In this document: one piece after another, positions 2,836 through 24,899 of the stretch
Layout of the letters: every line of letters starts with the position of its first letter
Numbering within the stretch: the stretch's first letter is position 1
From: a virus
Virus record (IMG/VR): IMGVR_UViG_3300008267_001965
Coordinates: 1-28,706 of that record
Strand: one strand, 5' to 3'
DNA: 28,706 nucleotides
The notes under the pieces: generated by a model
The model's input: the letters and a program-made list of their open reading frames with translations, nothing else
Database searches by the model: none
What the model was told of the DNA's origin: nothing
Made by a program: the position numbers and the translations under genes

Positions 2836-2862
2836 AAAAGCCCACGCTGAGTGGGCTTTTTT
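2836..2862 (+). terminator. Rho-independent terminator after gp19
   Basis: A perfect 10-bp stem AAAAGCCCAC / GTGGGCTTTT (2836-2845 with 2851-2860) has loop GCTGA and runs into TTTTTT. It lies directly after the gp19 stop and closes the sheath-tube transcript. Confidence 0.92.
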
Positions 2863-2897: not shown

Positions 2898-2905
2898 GAT
2901 AAATA
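2898..2905 (+). promoter_or_regulatory. T4-type late promoter, leaderless geometry
   Basis: GATAAATA is one base from the T4 late -10 consensus TATAAATA. It is followed by exactly 5 nt (TTATT) and the ATG at 2911, so the predicted start of transcription is the A of the start codon. No Shine-Dalgarno sequence lies between the box and the ATG. Confidence 0.75.
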
Positions 2906-2910
2906 TTATT

Positions 2911-4011
2911 ATGCCAACACCAGTTCAATATGGAGTAAGACAACCCGGAGAACCTGTTCTTCGAGATTTCCAACACGCTTCTCGATTATATCGAGAAAGT
3001 GATCTTCGTCTTGCCCCTAAAACAAAATTTCTCTATCACGTAGTTTTTAATATTAATTCTAATGCCCTTAAAAATTTAGGATTTAAATATCGACATCAAA
3101 ATGAAATTAACATGCTGGTTAAATCAGCTGAATTACCTAAATTTACAATACAGTCTGAAACACTAAATCAATACAACAGAAAAAAAGTTGTACAAAGTAA
3201 AATTGATTATCAGCCAGTGACTTTACGATTCCATGATGATAACTACGGTGTAGTAGGACAGTTATGGTATAACTATTATAACTACTATTACGGCGATACC
3301 GGCGCAGCAGATACTATTGGTGCTTACAATAGAAATGCTATGAAAGCTAAAAGTCACCTTAAAGGAAGTTTTGGTCTAGATAACAATAGTACTGTGCCAT
3401 TTTTTACAAGTATAGTAATTTATCAACTTGCTAAAAAAGCATGGTACGGATATAAATTAATTAATCCGTTGATAACAGCGTGGAATCACGATACACTTGA
3501 TTCAGCCAGTAGTCAGCCTGGGGAACAGGCAATGACATTAGCCTATGAAGCTGTGGCCTACGAAACTGGTAGAGTAAGAAACGGAATTCCCAATGGATTC
3601 AGTCAAGAGCACTACGATCAAACACCTAGCCCTTATGCTTCAGATCCTAGGGCAAGAAGAGCAGCCGCAGATCCTGTAGCACTTGGTGGCGGCACAAGTA
3701 TTTTTGGCAATGCCAGCAGCATATTAAGTGGAGTAAGTTCTGTGCTAGGTGCTATGGCAAATCCTAACACATTTACAAACCCTGCCGCATTTATAAGTAC
3801 AGCTATTACAGCAGTTAACACATATCAAAATGCAAAAAATCTCACAAGAGAAGGCGCAATAAATCAAGTCACTGGTGCTGTGCTAACGGGAGTAAATGCT
3901 GCTGCTCAAGTTGGTTTAAGCGGACAACCAAATGTAAGTTTTCCAGTACCAGGCGCATCACAGTCAACTCCTGCAAAGGCAGTAAGTATTTTTGGTCCAC
4001 AAGGCAGATAA
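2911..4011 (+). CDS. Tail-tube-like baseplate protein (gp54/gp48-type)
   Basis: A 366-aa protein whose N-terminal half looks like a tail-tube fold: FLYHVVFNINSNAL, then MLVKSAELPKFTIQSETLNQ and YNRKKVVQSKIDYQPVTLRF, followed by a Tyr-rich YNYYNYYYGD stretch. In T4, the tube initiator gp54 (about 320 aa) and tube cap gp48 (about 364 aa) carry gp19-like domains at the baseplate-tube junction, so this is likely one of those roles; I cannot decide which. The C-terminal third is Ala/Gly/Ser-rich with hydrophobic stretches (SSILSGVSSVLGAMANP) and could be a flexible or tape-contacting tail. It has its own late promoter and its stop (4009-4011) is 1 nt before the next ATG. Confidence 0.7.
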   Translation: MPTPVQYGVRQPGEPVLRDFQHASRLYRESDLRLAPKTKFLYHVVFNINSNALKNLGFKYRHQNEINMLVKSAELPKFTIQSETLNQYNRKKVVQSKIDYQPVTLRFHDDNYGVVGQLWYNYYNYYYGDTGAADTIGAYNRNAMKAKSHLKGSFGLDNNSTVPFFTSIVIYQLAKKAWYGYKLINPLITAWNHDTLDSASSQPGEQAMTLAYEAVAYETGRVRNGIPNGFSQEHYDQTPSPYASDPRARRAAADPVALGGGTSIFGNASSILSGVSSVLGAMANPNTFTNPAAFISTAITAVNTYQNAKNLTREGAINQVTGAVLTGVNAAAQVGLSGQPNVSFPVPGASQSTPAKAVSIFGPQGR

Positions 4012-4012
4012 C

Positions 4013-4390
4013 ATGTCAGACGTTACTAGTAATATTCCAACAGAAGCTACAGAAGATAGTAGTACAGAAGTCAAAACATTTTTTGACAAATATTTTGTTA
4101 ATCAAATAAGTTTTCCTGCAAGCCAAGTAGACGCTGTAGTAGGTTTTTTCTTAAAACGAGGGTTTGGGGAAGAAGCTGCTAGAAGTACTGGCATTGTATT
4201 AATGAATCAGGCTAAAGTTGATAACATAAATGTTTTTAAACTATTAGACAGTCTCAAAGGACTTAATGATGTACAGCTCAGTACTATTGTAAGTCAAGTT
4301 CTTAATTCTTATCGTGAAAAAACCAGCATTTTAGGTTTTAAGTTTACTTCAGATAATGACGCTCTAGAAAGCAGAAATATTAAACCATGA
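4013..4390 (+). CDS. Small conserved phage protein, unknown function
   Basis: 125 aa starting at ATG 4013 (MSDVTSNIPTEA). The longer reading from 3992 would overlap the upstream gene by 20 nt and is not preferred. After an acidic N-terminus there is a helical core, FFDKYFVNQISFPASQVDAV then VVGFFLKRGFGEEAA and NVFKLLDSLKGLNDVQL, ending near ESRNIKP. I believe similar proteins occur in marine T4-like phages beside head or tail genes, but I know no function. It lies between the tube-like baseplate protein and gp4 and overlaps gp4 by 4 nt (ATGA), so a virion assembly role is likely by position only. Confidence 0.75.
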   Translation: MSDVTSNIPTEATEDSSTEVKTFFDKYFVNQISFPASQVDAVVGFFLKRGFGEEAARSTGIVLMNQAKVDNINVFKLLDSLKGLNDVQLSTIVSQVLNSYREKTSILGFKFTSDNDALESRNIKP

Positions 4391-4824
4391 GCAGATTTGC
4401 ATCAGGAAAATATCAACTTCAGAATCCAGAAAAATATGTAGGGAAAAAAAGTCCAACATATCGTAGTAGCTGGGAATTGGCCTTTATGCGTTTTTGCGAT
4501 ACGCACGGTAGTGTTCAAAAATGGGCCAGCGAATCAATAGCAATACCTTATCGTTGCCCAATTACTGCTCGACAAACAGTATACATACCAGACTTCTTTT
4601 TACAGTATCTTGACAAAAATAGTCAAATACACACAGAGCTAATAGAAGTTAAACCACAGAATCAAACGTTAAGAGAAAAAGTAGGCAAAAGCAAACACAA
4701 TCAAATTGAGTATGCTAGAAATGTTGCTAAATGGCGTGCCGCACAGACTTGGTGCAAAGCACAGGGTATAAAATTTAGAGTAATCAACGAAAATGAAATT
4801 TTCCACAATGGTGGAAAAAGATAA
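4387..4824 (+). CDS. 4: Head completion protein gp4 (gp50)
   Basis: 145 aa, matching the T4 gp4 head-completion family, which has a TnsA/Holliday-resolvase-like nuclease fold. It acts after packaging to make heads competent for tail joining. Visible features are YQLQNPEKYVGKKSPTYRSS, then SWELAFMRFCD, KWASESIAIPY, the strand YIPDFFLQYL (PDF core) and ELIEVKPQ (ExK core), in the order E...PDF...ExK expected for this nuclease fold. The start ATG overlaps the previous stop. The final codons overlap the late promoter of gp16. Confidence 0.85.
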   Translation: MSRFASGKYQLQNPEKYVGKKSPTYRSSWELAFMRFCDTHGSVQKWASESIAIPYRCPITARQTVYIPDFFLQYLDKNSQIHTELIEVKPQNQTLREKVGKSKHNQIEYARNVAKWRAAQTWCKAQGIKFRVINENEIFHNGGKR

Positions 4825-4827
4825 GTA
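4820..4827 (+). promoter_or_regulatory. Late-promoter-like box, leaderless geometry, gp16
   Basis: GATAAGTA is followed by 5 nt (GTTGT) and ATG 4833, the same spacing as at 2898, 6867 and 8316. It overlaps the gp4 stop codon. No ribosome-binding site separates it from the ATG. It has two departures from TATAAATA, so it is weaker than its fellows. Confidence 0.55.
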
Positions 4828-4832
4828 GTTGT

Positions 4833-5321
4833 ATGACTAAAAAACTCGAAGAATTGCTCAATTTGCCCGAAAACAAGAAAATGGTAAATGATGCGGAAAA
4901 ACTTGCTGAAAAAAATGCAGTAGCCCAGCAATCACAACCGTTATTACGGGAACTATCAGAATTTGACAAAATATCAGCAGCCTTGCCACAGGTAAAGGGA
5001 CTTGGTGATATTGCCGATGGCGAACTCGATGCATTGGCTCAACGTGCTACAGATGCCTATGATGATCTAATGGATCTGGGTATGAATGTAGAAGCACGTT
5101 ATAGCGGACGTATATTTGAAGTTGCAGGCACTATGCTTAAAAATGCCATAGATGCTAAAAGTGCAAAGTTAGACAAGAAACTTAAGATGATCGAACTACA
5201 GCTTAAAAAACAACAATTAGATCAAAAAGCTGGCGATGAAACTCTCACAGTACATGGTGAAGGTGTGATTATATCTGATCGCAATAGTCTAATTGAAAAA
5301 CTTAAAAATATGAATAAATAA
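4833..5321 (+). CDS. 16: Terminase small subunit gp16
   Basis: 162 aa, close to the 164 aa of T4 gp16. The small terminase forms a ring that recognises the concatemer and stimulates the gp17 ATPase. The sequence is mostly helical: an N-terminal segment, a central region with YSGRIFEVAGTMLKNAIDAK and a long charged coiled coil AKLDKKLKMIELQLKKQQL, then a DRNSLIEKLKN C-terminal tail. This layout of central coiled coil plus C-terminal tail fits gp16. Two genes and a terminator separate it from gp17, unlike T4, where 16 and 17 are adjacent. Confidence 0.8.
   Translation: MTKKLEELLNLPENKKMVNDAEKLAEKNAVAQQSQPLLRELSEFDKISAALPQVKGLGDIADGELDALAQRATDAYDDLMDLGMNVEARYSGRIFEVAGTMLKNAIDAKSAKLDKKLKMIELQLKKQQLDQKAGDETLTVHGEGVIISDRNSLIEKLKNMNK
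5313..5320 (+). promoter_or_regulatory. Late promoter, leadered geometry
   Basis: AATAAATA overlaps the 3' end of gp16 and is followed by an AT stretch, a TAGGAT ribosome-site-like sequence (about 5327-5332) and ATG 5340, 20 nt after the box. This is the leadered class, like 19690 and 24892. Confidence 0.65.
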
Positions 5322-5339
5322 TATATTAGGATTTAAGCC

Positions 5340-5954
5340 ATGAAATTATTCAGTCAATACCTTAAAGAAAATCAAGACACTAAAAAGTATGTCTTTAAAA
5401 TAAAAGTTGCTGGTGATCTTCCTGAGCATTGTGAAGATGTTATGGAAGCCGCATTACAAAAATATCAAGTAAGTAAATTTACCAAAGGTAAAAGCACTCC
5501 TATTCAAGCAACATTAATTGATTTTCCAGAAATAAAAAATTCGTCAATGACAGTTTTTGAAACTGAATTAGATTATCCTACTACCAGTGCAGTATTAGCA
5601 GAATTGTTAGCTAGCTCTACTGGTATAAGTAGATCTTGCATTCGTGTAAGAACACCAATAGAAGAAGCAAACATGGCTGTTGAAACAGAAGAAGATAATC
5701 CTACTTCTATTTTAACTCAAGATTACCCTAAAGAAAATAATCAAAATTTAGTAGGCGAAAAATACATTAGCGGGTTTTTAAAAGACCTAGCAAAACAACG
5801 AAAAGAAAGTCAACCTACACAATACAAAGGTGTAAACGAAAAATTATTAGCTAAATCATTGCACAAAGAAAAAGCAACTGAAATGGCCAAAACTGGCCCT
5901 GCTCATAGTTTACTCAAGGGTCTAACAGGTAACCCTGACCCAAGAAAAGGATAA
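5340..5954 (+). CDS. Putative internal head protein with capsid-targeting N-terminus
   Basis: 204 aa. The first ten residues, MKLFSQYLKE, closely resemble the capsid targeting sequence of T4 internal proteins (of the type MKTYQEFIAE), which directs them into the prohead core and is cut by protease gp21 after L/I-x-E. Cleavage here would fall after LKE (residues 8-10). The rest begins with an alternating-strand domain (KYVFKIKVAGDLPEHCEDV, YPTTSAVLAELLAS) and ends in a Lys-rich, Gln-rich tail (KESQPTQYKGVNEKLL), suiting a DNA-contacting core protein. Similar unassigned proteins occur, I believe, in marine T4-like phages. It has its own late promoter and a TAGGAT site, and lies between gp16 and gp17. 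The targeting role is inference. Confidence 0.65.
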   Translation: MKLFSQYLKENQDTKKYVFKIKVAGDLPEHCEDVMEAALQKYQVSKFTKGKSTPIQATLIDFPEIKNSSMTVFETELDYPTTSAVLAELLASSTGISRSCIRVRTPIEEANMAVETEEDNPTSILTQDYPKENNQNLVGEKYISGFLKDLAKQRKESQPTQYKGVNEKLLAKSLHKEKATEMAKTGPAHSLLKGLTGNPDPRKG

Positions 5955-5958
5955 TAAT

Positions 5959-6822
5959 ATGAATTTTAATGAACTAATGAGAAAGATGGTCGAATTGGAT
6001 CAGCCAACTACTGAACGAGCAACAGGCGGACGACCTGGCATTAACGCACTCACAGGTCAACCGGCAGCACCGGCAGCACCAGGACCTGATCATCTCGCTG
6101 AACCCCCAGAAAGAGCTCCAATGGCGCCAGGAGCACCAAATATTCTAGCAAACAAAACTAGAATGCCTGACCCAGCAGCCGCTGCCAGAGCACAACGTGG
6201 AGCAATGGCAAACGATCTTGCTAATCAAGAACAACCAAAAGAAGGCAATGCTTTTAGCGGTGCATTAGATGCTGCTCGAGATTCTGGTCAATCTGAATTT
6301 GAAGTTGACGGACAAACTTTTAAAGTTAAAGAAGACGATGTAGATGAGTGTGGCATGCCTGGAATGGCAAATATGCCTGGCGGTATGATGGGCATGAGAA
6401 ATGGCACTCCTCCACAGGCAGATTCTATCAGTGCTAACGTCAGCATGAACGCACAAGGCGCCGGTGGTATTAAAAACCTAATGGATATCTTAAAAAATAT
6501 CGAAGATGGTAATACCAGCAGTGACAGTGACGACATGGAAGATCCTGCAATCCTTATTAAGAAAATGCAACACCCATTTATGGGCGGAGATGATAAAGGA
6601 CCAGGCCAAAAAATAATTGGACAAGAGGAACTTGCTAATTCTCCAGACGAAATGTATGCAGACACTGGTGCAGTCACAGGAACAGGTGACGATCTACACG
6701 GTAATGCTAGCAGAGGTAATCAAGGCGATCGCTACGACGGATATGCGCCTCGAGGTGTTACAGCAATGGAAGGTCTAGTGCAACGTTTGTCAAATTTATA
6801 CAACGAAGTTAAATCTCGTTGA
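5959..6822 (+). CDS. Low-complexity virion-associated protein
   Basis: 287 aa, unknown function. The N-terminus (MNFNELMRKMVELD) is a short amphipathic helix that could also be a capsid-targeting/gp21-type signal. Residues about 25-65 are Pro/Ala-rich repeats (QPAAPAAPGPDHLAEPPERA), and about 125-150 are Met/Gly-rich (MPGMANMPGGMMGMRNG). Most of the remainder is predicted disordered and acidic, with a C-terminal helix (GVTAMEGLVQRLSNLYNEVK). AAGGA lies about 8 nt upstream of ATG 5959; the stop of the previous gene is 4 nt away, so the two are coupled. It is closed by the terminator at 6839. A head-interior or scaffold-associated role is inferred from position and composition only. Confidence 0.7.
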   Translation: MNFNELMRKMVELDQPTTERATGGRPGINALTGQPAAPAAPGPDHLAEPPERAPMAPGAPNILANKTRMPDPAAAARAQRGAMANDLANQEQPKEGNAFSGALDAARDSGQSEFEVDGQTFKVKEDDVDECGMPGMANMPGGMMGMRNGTPPQADSISANVSMNAQGAGGIKNLMDILKNIEDGNTSSDSDDMEDPAILIKKMQHPFMGGDDKGPGQKIIGQEELANSPDEMYADTGAVTGTGDDLHGNASRGNQGDRYDGYAPRGVTAMEGLVQRLSNLYNEVKSR

Positions 6823-6838
6823 TTAAATTTGTAATTTC

Positions 6839-6864
6839 AAAAGCGGGCTTTTGCCCGCTTTTTT
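6839..6864 (+). terminator. Rho-independent terminator before gp17
   Basis: A perfect 10-bp stem AAAAGCGGGC / GCCCGCTTTT (6839-6848 with 6853-6862) has loop TTTT and continues into T residues. It ends the gp16/head-protein transcript just upstream of the gp17 promoter. Confidence 0.93.
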
Positions 6865-6866
6865 GT

Positions 6867-6874
6867 TGTAAATA
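6867..6874 (+). promoter_or_regulatory. Late-promoter-like box, leaderless geometry, gp17
   Basis: TGTAAATA is followed by 5 nt (ATCAT) and ATG 6880. It sits immediately after the terminator, where a new promoter is required for gp17. No Shine-Dalgarno sequence is present. Confidence 0.6.
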
Positions 6875-6879
6875 ATCAT

Positions 6880-7437
6880 ATGCCAACAAAATCGTTAGAT
6901 GGAGTTTTAACTAAAAAAGCTCACACCAAAGAAACGTTTACAGAACAACAAATTGAAGATTTGTTAGCCTGTAGCAACGACGACGGATATCACTATTTTA
7001 CTCAAAAGTTTTTTTACATACAGCATCCTGTAAAAGGTAAACTACTTTTTGAACCTTTTGAATTTCAAACTAGATTATTAGACGCATACCACGGACATAG
7101 ATTTAATGTAAACATGTTACCACGTCAGATGGGCAAGACTACCTGTGCGGCAGGTTACTTGCTGTGGTATGCAATGTTTCATCCAGATCAAACTGTGTTA
7201 ATTTCAGCTCACAAGTTTACAGGTTCTCAAGAAATTATGCAGCGTATTCGTTATGCATATGAATTATGCCCTGATCATATACGCTGTGGTGTAGTCAACT
7301 ATAACAAAGGGAGTATTGAATTTGATAACGGATCACGCATTGTCTCTACAACTACTACTGGCAATACAGGCCGCGGTATGTCTATCTCCTTACTATACTG
7401 TGATGAGTTTGCATTTGTTACAAGAAACTGGTATTAA
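6880..7437 (+). CDS. 17: Terminase large subunit gp17, N-terminal ATPase fragment
   Basis: N-terminal part of the packaging motor ATPase-nuclease. Residues 81-87 (PRQMGKT) are the Walker A motif and residues 171-176 (LLYCDE) the Walker B with catalytic Glu, followed by the family signature FAFV (177-180). After FAFV (nt 7419) the frame runs only TRNWY and stops at 7435-7437. In relatives, roughly 50-60 more residues follow, including the coupling motif (TTTPNG / TSTPN type), before the segment that resumes here at about 7421 in another frame. The block is absent from the window, so this is an internal deletion that also breaks the frame. As read, it would give a 185-aa truncated ATPase. It is either a real broken gene or an assembly error. 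Confidence 0.85.
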   Translation: MPTKSLDGVLTKKAHTKETFTEQQIEDLLACSNDDGYHYFTQKFFYIQHPVKGKLLFEPFEFQTRLLDAYHGHRFNVNMLPRQMGKTTCAAGYLLWYAMFHPDQTVLISAHKFTGSQEIMQRIRYAYELCPDHIRCGVVNYNKGSIEFDNGSRIVSTTTTGNTGRGMSISLLYCDEFAFVTRNWY

Positions 7438-8317
7438 TGGCTTCTTTCCATTTACCTGTAAGTGGAGTGAGCATCCTGATAGAGACGAAGTATGGGAACG
7501 TGCAGAGCGTGGTCGTATTGGTGAAGAACGATTTCGTCGTGAATATAATTGCGAATTCTTGATCTATGACGAAACACTGGTCAGCAGTATTAAACTGTCT
7601 GAATTAGAAGGAATTGAGCCTATTCAACGAGTAGGTCAAACCCGTTGGTATAAAAAATTAAACAAAGAAAGCATATATGCCATTACATTAGATCCTAGTC
7701 TAGGAACAGGCGGCAACAATGCTGCCATAGAAGTATTTGAATTACCTAGTTTCACACAGGTTGCAGAATGGCAGCACAATCTTACTCCTATACAAGGACA
7801 AATTAAAATACTACGTGAAATACTAAAGTATATTAATGATTTTATGGGTGAAGACAATCCTAACAGCATCTATTGGACTATTGAAAATAACACAGTAGGC
7901 GAAGCAGGGTTAGTATGCATACGAGATATTGGAGAAGAGAATTTTCCAGGACTATTCGTCAGCGAACCTGTGCGTAAAGGACACGTTCGTAAATTCCGTA
8001 AAGGGTTTAACACTACACACGGTTCAAAAATTGCTGCCGCAGCTAGATTAAAACATCTAATAGAAACTAATAAAATGACTATCTACAGCAGGCCTTTGAT
8101 TTCAGAGCTTAAAACGTTTATTGCACACGGTGTAAGTTTTAAAGCTAAAAACGAAGAACAAGACGACCTAGTCAGTGCTTGTTTATTGCTAGTTCGCATG
8201 AGTCAAGTGTTAGGGGATTGGGATCAGCGGGTCTACGCTACTATTAACAGCAGCGATTTTGTTAGCGAAGAAGATATTGACATGCCAATGCCTATTTTTA
8301 TTTCCACAAACATGTGA
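7421..8317 (+). CDS. 17: Terminase large subunit gp17, C-terminal nuclease fragment
   Basis: About 298 residues that continue gp17 in frame +2 after the break. It begins QETGINGFFPF, then SEHPDRDEVWERAERGRIGEE and FRREYNCEFLIYDET, then the RNase H-like nuclease domain with its three acidic sites: ITLDPSLG (Asp, counterpart of T4 D401), YWTIENNTVG (Glu, counterpart of T4 E458) and EEQDDLVSA (Asp, counterpart of T4 D542). The nuclease is intact. The open frame extends upstream to 7316 (TTG), but the sequence before 7421 is only the N-terminal fragment read out of frame. No promoter or ribosome site serves this fragment, so it would not be made unless the break is an artefact. The stop overlaps the next late promoter. 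Confidence 0.85.
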   Translation, partial: QETGINGFFPFTCKWSEHPDRDEVWERAERGRIGEERFRREYNCEFLIYDETLVSSIKLSELEGIEPIQRVGQTRWYKKLNKESIYAITLDPSLGTGGNNAAIEVFELPSFTQVAEWQHNLTPIQGQIKILREILKYINDFMGEDNPNSIYWTIENNTVGEAGLVCIRDIGEENFPGLFVSEPVRKGHVRKFRKGFNTTHGSKIAAAARLKHLIETNKMTIYSRPLISELKTFIAHGVSFKAKNEEQDDLVSACLLLVRMSQVLGDWDQRVYATINSSDFVSEEDIDMPMPIFISTNM

Positions 8318-8323
8318 TAAATA
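8316..8323 (+). promoter_or_regulatory. T4-type late promoter, leaderless geometry
   Basis: GATAAATA overlaps the gp17 stop and is followed by 5 nt (CGATT) and ATG 8329. It has the same box and spacing as 2898. Confidence 0.7.
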
Positions 8324-8328
8324 CGATT

Positions 8329-8832
8329 ATGAATAAAAATCTAAATTTAATTGCTAAAGAGTTATTTGCTAAAATTCGCACTTCTTTTCCAGAGATTTCA
8401 CTTAAGGATGAAGAAAGCGAGACCACAGGTAAACCTTCAGAGGCTAGATTCTTTGATTTTGACTACGCAACAGATGGGCATAATTTAGGAAGAATTACGA
8501 TCCACCTTGCAGGAAAAGATGCAGACGAGGACGGCGATAAAGACGGACTTACAGTTATCTATTCGAATGCCATTGTAGACAAAGAATCTGATTATACAAA
8601 AAAGAAATTTTACGAATTCTTAAAAGAACTTCGAGAATTTGCAAAACAAAAATTATTAAATTTTGATACACGAGACATTTCAAAAAGTAATTTAGAAAAA
8701 AGAGATTACGACTTTTTATCCAAAAAATCCGGAGACGGCAACATGACCGAAAGCAAACTATATGGCACAAGCAAAACTAGTTTTCAACAGTTTGGCGAAT
8801 CAAAAATTATTGTAAAAGTTACGTATGTTTAA
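8329..8832 (+). CDS. Virion-associated protein, N-terminal part (probably split gene)
   Basis: 167 aa from ATG 8329, chosen because the late promoter is spaced to it; the GTG at 8314 would lie inside the promoter. The sequence has a folded N-terminal domain (LIAKELFAKIRTSFPEISL, FFDFDYATDGHNLGRI) and a segment KFYEFLKELREFAKQKLLNF, then SNLEKRDYDFLSKKSGDGN and ESKLYGTSKTSFQQFGESKI. From memory of marine T4-like phages, this domain continues beyond KIIVK into a longer protein. Here the frame ends abruptly in VTYV, and the downstream gene begins in another frame with what looks like the continuation (KLRMFKGYVERN). I therefore read 8329-10087 as one gene with an internal deletion. Function is unknown, probably structural. 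Confidence 0.7.
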   Translation: MNKNLNLIAKELFAKIRTSFPEISLKDEESETTGKPSEARFFDFDYATDGHNLGRITIHLAGKDADEDGDKDGLTVIYSNAIVDKESDYTKKKFYEFLKELREFAKQKLLNFDTRDISKSNLEKRDYDFLSKKSGDGNMTESKLYGTSKTSFQQFGESKIIVKVTYV

Positions 8833-10087: not shown

Positions 10088-10125
10088 GTCATAATTTAGG
10101 CAAGATTTCTCTTGCAAACATAAAT

Positions 10126-10159
10126 AAAAACGCATACAATAACATGTATGCGTTTTTTT
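10126..10159 (+). terminator. Rho-independent terminator upstream of gp32
   Basis: A 12-bp perfect stem AAAAACGCATAC / GTATGCGTTTTT (10126-10137 with 10146-10157), with a further A-T pair possible, has a small loop and a run of seven T. It separates the structural module from the gp32 replication module. Confidence 0.93.
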
Positions 10160-16602: not shown

Positions 16603-16608
16603 AACAAC

Positions 16609-17115
16609 ATGATGATACTTACATTAGACAATATACCCTTTGATTTAAATAATCTTCCAGAGGAAGTTGACGACAATATGCGATTTGCTGTGTTAGATAA
16701 CAGTAGTCCGCAAGAGCCTGATTTCTTTTTTCAACCCTTGATATTTTTAGAAAGCTTTAACAGTCCTGCAATGGTCTTAAAAATAGGCGACGACGAAGTT
16801 ACTATGCCTATTGATTGGAGTATAGCTGTAGGAGATAGTCAAAGTAGTTGTGATATAGAAATATTATCTTTAACTAGTTTAAACGATCGTGGATTTGAAG
16901 CATTATGTTTTAATCCGTTGAGTAGTTTTAGAGTAGAATTTAAACCTATTGAAATAGTAAATTTCTACAACGATGTTAAATGGTATTTTCCTAAAATGAA
17001 AAATAGTCAGCTATTAGCTGTGCCATTAAACAATAAACCTAAAGCACTTTGTACTTATTTTGTTAAAGAAATTTCTCGTCAAAACGAATTAATAGATTTA
17101 TCAAAATTGCTGTAA
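16609..17115 (+). CDS. Unknown protein after uvsW, possibly leaderless
   Basis: 168 aa from ATG 16609 (or 167 from 16612). The TTG at 16591 lies inside the promoter and is rejected. The sequence is strand-rich: MILTLDNIPFDLNNLPEEVD, then FFFQPLIFLESFNSPAMVLK, DDEVTMPIDWSIAVGDSQ, LSSFRVEFKPIEIVNFYNDV and KNSQLLAVPLNNKPKALCTY. The Trp/Phe-rich core with a closing helix suggests a compact beta domain. It has no Shine-Dalgarno, but a strong promoter places its 5' end at the start codon. Function is unknown, although I recall similar proteins beside uvsW in marine T4-like phages. Confidence 0.75.
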   Translation: MMILTLDNIPFDLNNLPEEVDDNMRFAVLDNSSPQEPDFFFQPLIFLESFNSPAMVLKIGDDEVTMPIDWSIAVGDSQSSCDIEILSLTSLNDRGFEALCFNPLSSFRVEFKPIEIVNFYNDVKWYFPKMKNSQLLAVPLNNKPKALCTYFVKEISRQNELIDLSKLL

Positions 17116-19313: not shown

Positions 19314-19690
19314 CGACTAGTTGGTTTTCGCACCAACTGTACGCTCTTTCTTTTAATACGTTTAAGGGACAGGTTCATAAGATTTACCACTGGCCCTAGT
19401 ATAATTCTCACATCTTTACTGTTAAACGTTTTTATAATATACCTAAACGGTTCTATTTCTTTTCTTAAGAAGATATTAATAGGAACTTGACGGTTACTTT
19501 CCCACCACCAAATTTCTCCCAGCTCAAGAAGCAGGGTTTTTTCATCAGTTGTACGTACTGCTTCCAGGTCGTAAAAGCTTGTAACGTGCTGATCTTGGTT
19601 GATTATTATTCCCACGTACTCATTCTCTCCGTAATTAAGTACACTGATAAAGGGCAGTTGTTGTTCGATGTTATCTCTTAATTTAACCAT
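19310..19690 (-). CDS. Conserved minus-strand phage protein, unknown
   Basis: 126 aa from ATG at 19690 (MVKLRDNIEQQLPF); a longer start at 19720 would run through the promoter and into the next gene, so it is rejected. Signature segments are VGIIINQDQHVTSFYDLEAV, LGEIWWWESNRQVPINIFL, KTFNSKDVRIILGPVVNL and KRIKRKSVQLVRKP, and the basic C-terminus may bind nucleic acid. The rare WWW run and INIFL block make chance coding unlikely. It is the only convincing minus-strand gene of the window, converging on the Pol III-like gene with a 4-nt stop overlap (TTAA). Its upstream box TATACGTA plus 5 nt gives leaderless geometry. Confidence 0.78.
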   Translation of the reverse strand: MVKLRDNIEQQLPFISVLNYGENEYVGIIINQDQHVTSFYDLEAVRTTDEKTLLLELGEIWWWESNRQVPINIFLRKEIEPFRYIIKTFNSKDVRIILGPVVNLMNLSLKRIKRKSVQLVRKPTSR

Positions 19691-19703
19691 ATAAATACGT
19701 ATA
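19690..19703. promoter_or_regulatory. Divergent late promoter pair
   Basis: Plus strand: TATAAATA (19690-19697, perfect T4 late consensus), then TATAGGGA and ATG 19715. Minus strand: TATACGTA (19696-19703 read in reverse), then 5 nt and ATG at 19690. The two boxes overlap by 2 bp, so only one polymerase can probably occupy the site at a time. The plus-strand box is strong evidence; the minus box has one mismatch to TATAAGTA and two to TATAAATA and is tentative. Confidence 0.7.
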
Positions 19704-24891: not shown

Positions 24892-24899
24892 GATAAATA
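24892..24899 (+). promoter_or_regulatory. Late promoter, leadered geometry
   Basis: GATAAATA, then TCAAT, AGGAC (ribosome-site-like) and ATG 24916, 17 nt after the box, the same layout as 19690. It lies after the stop of the collagen-like fibre. Confidence 0.7.

Follow-up and report, generated by a model that had tools for sequence, protein, structure and literature searches.

Late promoters that may begin messages on the start codon in uncultured relatives of bacteriophage T4

Can a T4-type late message begin on its own start codon? The question is raised by a 28.7 kb fragment (28,706 nt; the whole stretch analysed, here termed the window) of an uncultured T4-related myovirus, which is probably a jumbo phage. 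The textbook picture of T4 late transcription is of mRNAs led by Shine–Dalgarno (SD) sequences. In the window, four plus-strand genes are preceded by a T4-like late box, exactly five nucleotides (N5) and then ATG. The boxes are GATAAATA at 2898..2905 (spacer TTATT, ATG 2911), GATAAGTA at 4820..4827 (GTTGT, ATG 4833), TGTAAATA at 6867..6874 (ATCAT, ATG 6880) and GATAAATA again at 8316..8323 (CGATT, ATG 8329). The base at −1 is T at 4/4 of these sites. No SD-like motif occurs in the 5-nt spacer at any of them, and a gap of N4–6 leaves no room for one at a functional distance.

An earlier note, made from the sequence alone, had claimed these four sites and had argued that chance poorly explains their constant spacing. 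Both claims held: all four sites are at the positions given, they are real gene starts, and they are far above chance. The window contains 5 matches to RTAARTA-N5-ATG, whereas dinucleotide shuffles predict 0.59 and none of them gave 5, and when only the approximately 27 gene starts are considered, four box-N5-ATG arrangements are seen against 0.018 expected (P ~3e-9). The fifth match, on the minus strand at 16608–16622, is at no gene start and is dismissed as chance. Separately, a CATAAATA box is found at 10119–10126, just 5′ of a terminator-like hairpin (CGCATACA..TGTATGCG) and T-run that lie downstream of the 8825–10087 gene; no gene start is within its reach.

The four ATGs open frames of 366, 162, 185 and 167 aa (gene starts throughout are mechanical ORF calls), and all four genes are predicted to be leaderless. 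The first, tube2 (2911..4011, plus strand), is a second tail-tube-like structural gene (phrog_13438, tail tube, E=6.6e-15). The second (4833..5321, plus strand) is a gp16-like terminase small subunit, based on a weak match to phrog_445 (E=2e-6), and its box shares bases with the stop codon of the preceding head-closure gene. The third encodes the N-terminal part of the gp17 large terminase (6880..7437, plus strand; phrog_5989, E=3.5e-45). The C-terminal part continues in a different frame (7316..8317, plus strand), as the gp17 frame is broken in this contig. The fourth, p8329 (8329..8832, plus strand), is the 5′ portion of a gene for a virion structural protein, and its box overlaps the gp17 stop codon. 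The window p8329 protein has no family match itself; a longer orthologue (L103:16578-18665) matches phrog_13484, virion structural (E=1.3e-13). Location before late genes, i.e. those for virion and packaging proteins, is a criterion for T4-type late promoters, and it is met here.

The frame interruptions can be located by comparison with two near-identical contigs, L006 and L007, where gp17 has 530 aa and the gene after it 655 aa. Relative to these, gp17 lacks ~155 nt between window positions 7419 and 7420, and p8329 is short by ~120–207 nt between 8816 and 8817; a local deletion or misassembly has broken both frames. Early gp17 stops are also present in two relatives, at L008 9668 (161 codons) and G001 120269 (89 codons). 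The window gp17 shows 60–100% identity to 80 contigs of IMG/VR, including one of 383 kb, and at best ~50% identity to cultured phages, among which PA5oct and its kin rank first.

The arrangement is conserved. In 80 relatives, a box at N4–6 is kept at orthologous starts of tube2 (41/42), gp16 (56/58), gp17 (58/69) and p8329 (61/73), and in several of the gp17 and p8329 exceptions the box position is taken by TTAAATA or CTAAATA. What is kept is the box and its distance to the ATG, mostly N5 and more rarely N4 or N6, whereas all spacer bases but the last are free to vary. In the same genomes an N4–6 box is almost never present before gp19, gp32, uvsX and the two genes between tube2 and gp16 (hyp4013 and gp4). 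ATAAATA stands at N4–6 before an ORF start in 47 of 212 boxes, compared with 0–3 for non-overlapping permuted 7-mers; among 21 permutations of ATAAATA, high scores were obtained only for those that overlap the box itself. The earlier note had named a lack of N5 enrichment in relatives as refuting its idea; the idea passed this test by both orthologue and permutation counts. When PA5oct gp17 was used to retrieve another 80 loci (the second set), these yielded 75 distinct N5 contexts, 12 N4, 13 N6 and 32 N7, all without an SD-like motif, plus a further mode at N17–27 in which most have one. Overall, the box-at-start pattern was found in ~160 relatives. Of IMG/VR matches to TATAAATA-N5-ATGAAAA and TATAAATA-N9-ATGAAAA, an ORF was opened by 76/121 at N5 and 53/121 at N9; the numbers of matches at the two spacings are not comparable.

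It should be pointed out that the N5 class is only one of two architectures. Omitted from the earlier note were three window late boxes with ordinary leaders, all on the plus strand: AATAAATA at 5313..5320 (N19 with AGGA, ATG 5340), TATAAATA at 19690..19697 (N17 with AGGG, ATG 19715) and GATAAATA at 24892..24899 (N16 with AGGA, ATG 24916). Orthologues of the 5340 gene (p5340) have a box at N18–19 with an AGGA-like motif in 52/63 cases, and the two architectures therefore exist side by side. A spacing census, in which ATAAATA boxes of eight larger contigs were scored by the first ORF start, gave 47 boxes at N4–6, with an SD-like 4-mer between box and ATG in 0, followed by 9 at N7–13, 63 at N14–25 (53 with an SD-like motif) and 24 at N26–40. 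The corresponding counts are 0/28, 2, 12 and 14 in T4, 0/20, 0, 4 and 16 in the stretch of CBB analysed, and 2, 2, 16 and 13 in PA5oct. Box spacing is thus bimodal, with a tight N4–6 mode devoid of SD motifs and an N14–30 mode that mostly has them; T4 and CBB have only the second. Start codons are similarly biased in the two classes: 131 ATG, 3 GTG and 0 TTG at N4–6, and 135 ATG, 4 TTG, 2 CTG and 0 GTG among leadered genes.

Orthologues shift between the two spacing modes. The head-tail adaptor Ad2 has its box at N4–5 in G003, G004 and G008, and at N15 with GGAG/GGAGA in G001 and G002; p5340 has N5 in G003 and G008 and N18 in most others. A rule that leaderless genes are those of low-copy proteins is not claimed, as baseplate wedge genes of G001 are found in both classes and gp23 was not located.

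Evidence on where transcription starts comes from the base composition around the ATG. Bacterial RNA polymerase prefers to start at a purine (+1) that is preceded by a pyrimidine (−1). Of 206 distinct N5 sites, 99% have a pyrimidine at −1 (T 88%, C 11%), versus 48% (T 30%, C 18%; A 46%) at 515 SD genes of the same genomes (Fisher 3e-48, a value that ignores kinship). Since the loci are related, raw P values overstate independence, and it is for this reason that the second-set test and a family-level test were made. With one count per gene family, a pyrimidine is found at −1 in 33/33 (P = 3e-11), although this answers the question of kinship only in part. At N8 sites, the pyrimidine-A step remains at box+5/6 in 83%, which would give a 3-nt leader; the step thus tracks the box and not only the ATG, as a transcription start should. 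At N7 sites a step is present at box+4/5 in 72%, and an ATG-adjacent pyrimidine is frequent too, so that the N7 sites are ambiguous. In leadered promoters the signature at box+5/6 is weak (27%), which indicates that their starts are less fixed. As a side observation, a sub-class of N7–N8 sites in the second set (e.g. L457, L462, L473, L483 and L504) has ACT-like triplets before the ATG, suggestive of 3-nt leaders.

Terminators provide a second line of evidence. A rho-independent terminator at 6841..6864 (plus strand) has a T-run that stops a few nucleotides 5′ of the window gp17 box, and a hairpin with T-run ends 1–3 nt before the box in 28/32 distinct gp17 upstream sequences. The stretch from terminator to ATG is <20 nt and is mostly filled by the box. 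As the terminator abuts the box, the simplest view is that gp17 RNA starts within this stretch. A similar rho-independent, terminator-like hairpin and T-run (AAAAGCCCAC...GTGGGCTTTTTT; 2836..2862, plus strand), read from the sequence, lies 3′ of gp19 and 5′ of the 2911 promoter.

The box itself is an TATAAATA-like 8-bp sequence with the consensus G/A/T-ATAAATA. The T at −13 is poorly conserved, as it is in other T4-like phages (PMC1524935). No −35 element was detected: information upstream of the box, profiled back to −32 from the ATG, is ≤0.40 bit. T4 late promoters likewise lack a −35 element (PMC2988020). Genes for a gp55-family sigma (phrog_12791) are present in G001, G002 and G003, which are the three largest relatives, as well as in PA5oct, Atu_ph07, CBB and Phosso. 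None was found in five shorter contigs (G004–G008), which are fragments, and one would not be expected in a stretch as short as the window. A search for gp45 via phrog_223 gave no match in the jumbo phages, nor in the controls, and is uninformative.

The reading that best accounts for these data, to which we assign a probability of ~0.88, is that gp55-type late promoters are set on the start codon and give rise to leaderless late mRNAs. The box, fixed spacing, initiator, lack of SD, terminator adjacency and presence of a gp55-family sigma in relatives are shown. The start of transcription in vivo and leaderless translation are inferred, and no RNA 5′ ends or ribosome profiling data were found. 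In the proposed mechanism, the phage late sigma on host RNA polymerase would recognize NATAAATA without a −35 element, and RNA would start 5–6 nt 3′ of the box, at the pyrimidine-A step. In the first architecture the starting A would be the A of the start codon, and the resulting leaderless mRNAs, encoding gp16, gp17, the tail-tube-like protein and the virion structural protein, would be recognized by ribosomes through the 5′-terminal AUG. In the second, within the same genomes, a box 14–30 nt upstream would yield a short leader with an SD motif. The earlier note had placed +1 on the A of ATG and inferred leaderless translation of late mRNAs, including those of both terminase subunits. The first proposal is supported by spacing, the T4 rule and the initiator, with no 5′ ends mapped, and the second by comparison; both remain inferences.

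Among other explanations, the one that survives best, though it appears unlikely, is a near-leaderless message, made from a genuine late promoter but begun 1–5 nt before the ATG, with a very short leader that lacks an SD. In its favour, N7 and N8 sites have a further pyrimidine-A step, 3 nt 5′ of the ATG (in the 72% and 83% given above), and some genes might thus have 3-nt leaders. Against it, the step at N5 sites coincides with the ATG in 99%, no other step is so conserved, and the A of ATG is where +1 should fall by the T4 rule (PMC1524935). Much weaker is the proposal that ribosomes read these genes on leadered polycistronic RNA, with the box and its spacing acting as a translational or termination-reinitiation element. 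The overlap or adjoining of box and upstream stop codon in gp16 and p8329 speaks for this. However, a terminator precedes gp17 (28/32 distinct upstreams) and the window tube2, the same box is found elsewhere at N14–30 with an SD, which would be unexpected of such an element, and the −1 pyrimidine is a transcription-start signature that SD genes do not show. Chance in an A+T-rich genome, for which the A+T-rich box and the one minus-strand match at no gene start might be cited, is all but excluded by shuffles, permutations, orthologue conservation and the independent second set.

How do start-codon promoters compare with known systems? T4 late promoters (gp55/gp33/gp45) have the same 8-bp box, TATAAATA, at −13 to −6 (PMC1524935) and no conserved −35; the distance to the inferred +1 is the same, a gp55-family sigma is present (here in relatives), and late virion and packaging genes are served. 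They differ in that 0/28 T4 boxes are at N4–6, T4 late mRNAs have leaders and SD sequences, and the −13 base is T in T4 but mostly G here. The Thermus phage phiYS40 has a temporal class of leaderless middle/late mRNAs (PMC3594737, citing Sevostyanova 2007); however, its promoters and host are different, it has no T4-type late system, and leaderless genes are common in Thermus. In Deinococcus-Thermus, experiments show a −10 box a few base pairs from the start codon, with fixed spacing and leaderless mRNA (PMC12340547), but a cellular sigma factor and a TANNNT motif are involved and no phage late genes. In the jumbo phages CBB and GAP32, structural genes are preceded by ATAAATA and a gp55-like sigma is present (PMC5259590), although CBB is leadered and its analysed stretch has no ATAAATA box at N4–6.

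No report of T4-type late promoters set on the start codon was found in the open-access literature searched, where an older report may have been missed, and a 2026 jumbo-phage review does not mention leaderless messages. Phage leaderless late mRNAs and T4 late promoters are known separately; what is likely to be new is their combination as a conserved second architecture.

Whether ribosomal proteins contribute is a matter of speculation. Al-Shayeb et al. (PMC7162821) noted that SD motifs are rare in huge phages with possible S1, and these SD-poor phages could conceivably overlap with the leaderless pattern. For predicted Bacteroidetes phages, a connection between phage bS21 and the expression of late genes has been made (PMC9723584). 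Genes for bS21 are present in four large genomes (G001:10787-10945, G009:232992-233144, G010:111767-111931 and PA5oct 170985–171143). A shifted IF2/IF3 balance in the host is a criterion for a leaderless programme of the phiYS40 kind; a phage IF3 was searched for and none found. As a specific marker of leaderless genomes bS21 is ruled out, since PA5oct has it yet has mostly leadered genes, and a causal link from bS21 to leaderless translation is no more than an idea. A search of a bacterial genome collection for relatives, as a clue to the host, found none, and the hosts are unknown.

PA5oct (NC_071039) is a cultured relative in which the start-codon prediction is directly testable. Two of its virion genes, both confirmed by mass spectrometry, have a box at N5 with T as the −1 base. 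The head maturation protease gene (84079) has GATAAGTA-TAAGT-ATG, and a gene for a structural protein (144985) has TATAAATA-CGTGT-ATG. Of practical use, box-N5-YATG is a sequence rule by which the start codons of phage genes from metagenomes can be corrected.

A bolder reading, which can be offered only as a possibility, is that one late promoter in two registers constitutes a translation switch, producing leaderless mRNA when set at the start codon and SD-led mRNA when 14–30 nt away, with genes that jump between registers and bS21 perhaps helping infected ribosomes to read one class. If true, the switch would be a trait of giant T4 relatives from lakes and other environments. On the main reading, if it is true, many environmental relatives of T4 begin core late messages on AUG, and gp16, gp17 and several virion proteins would be made via a 70S/leaderless route during takeover of the host translation machinery.
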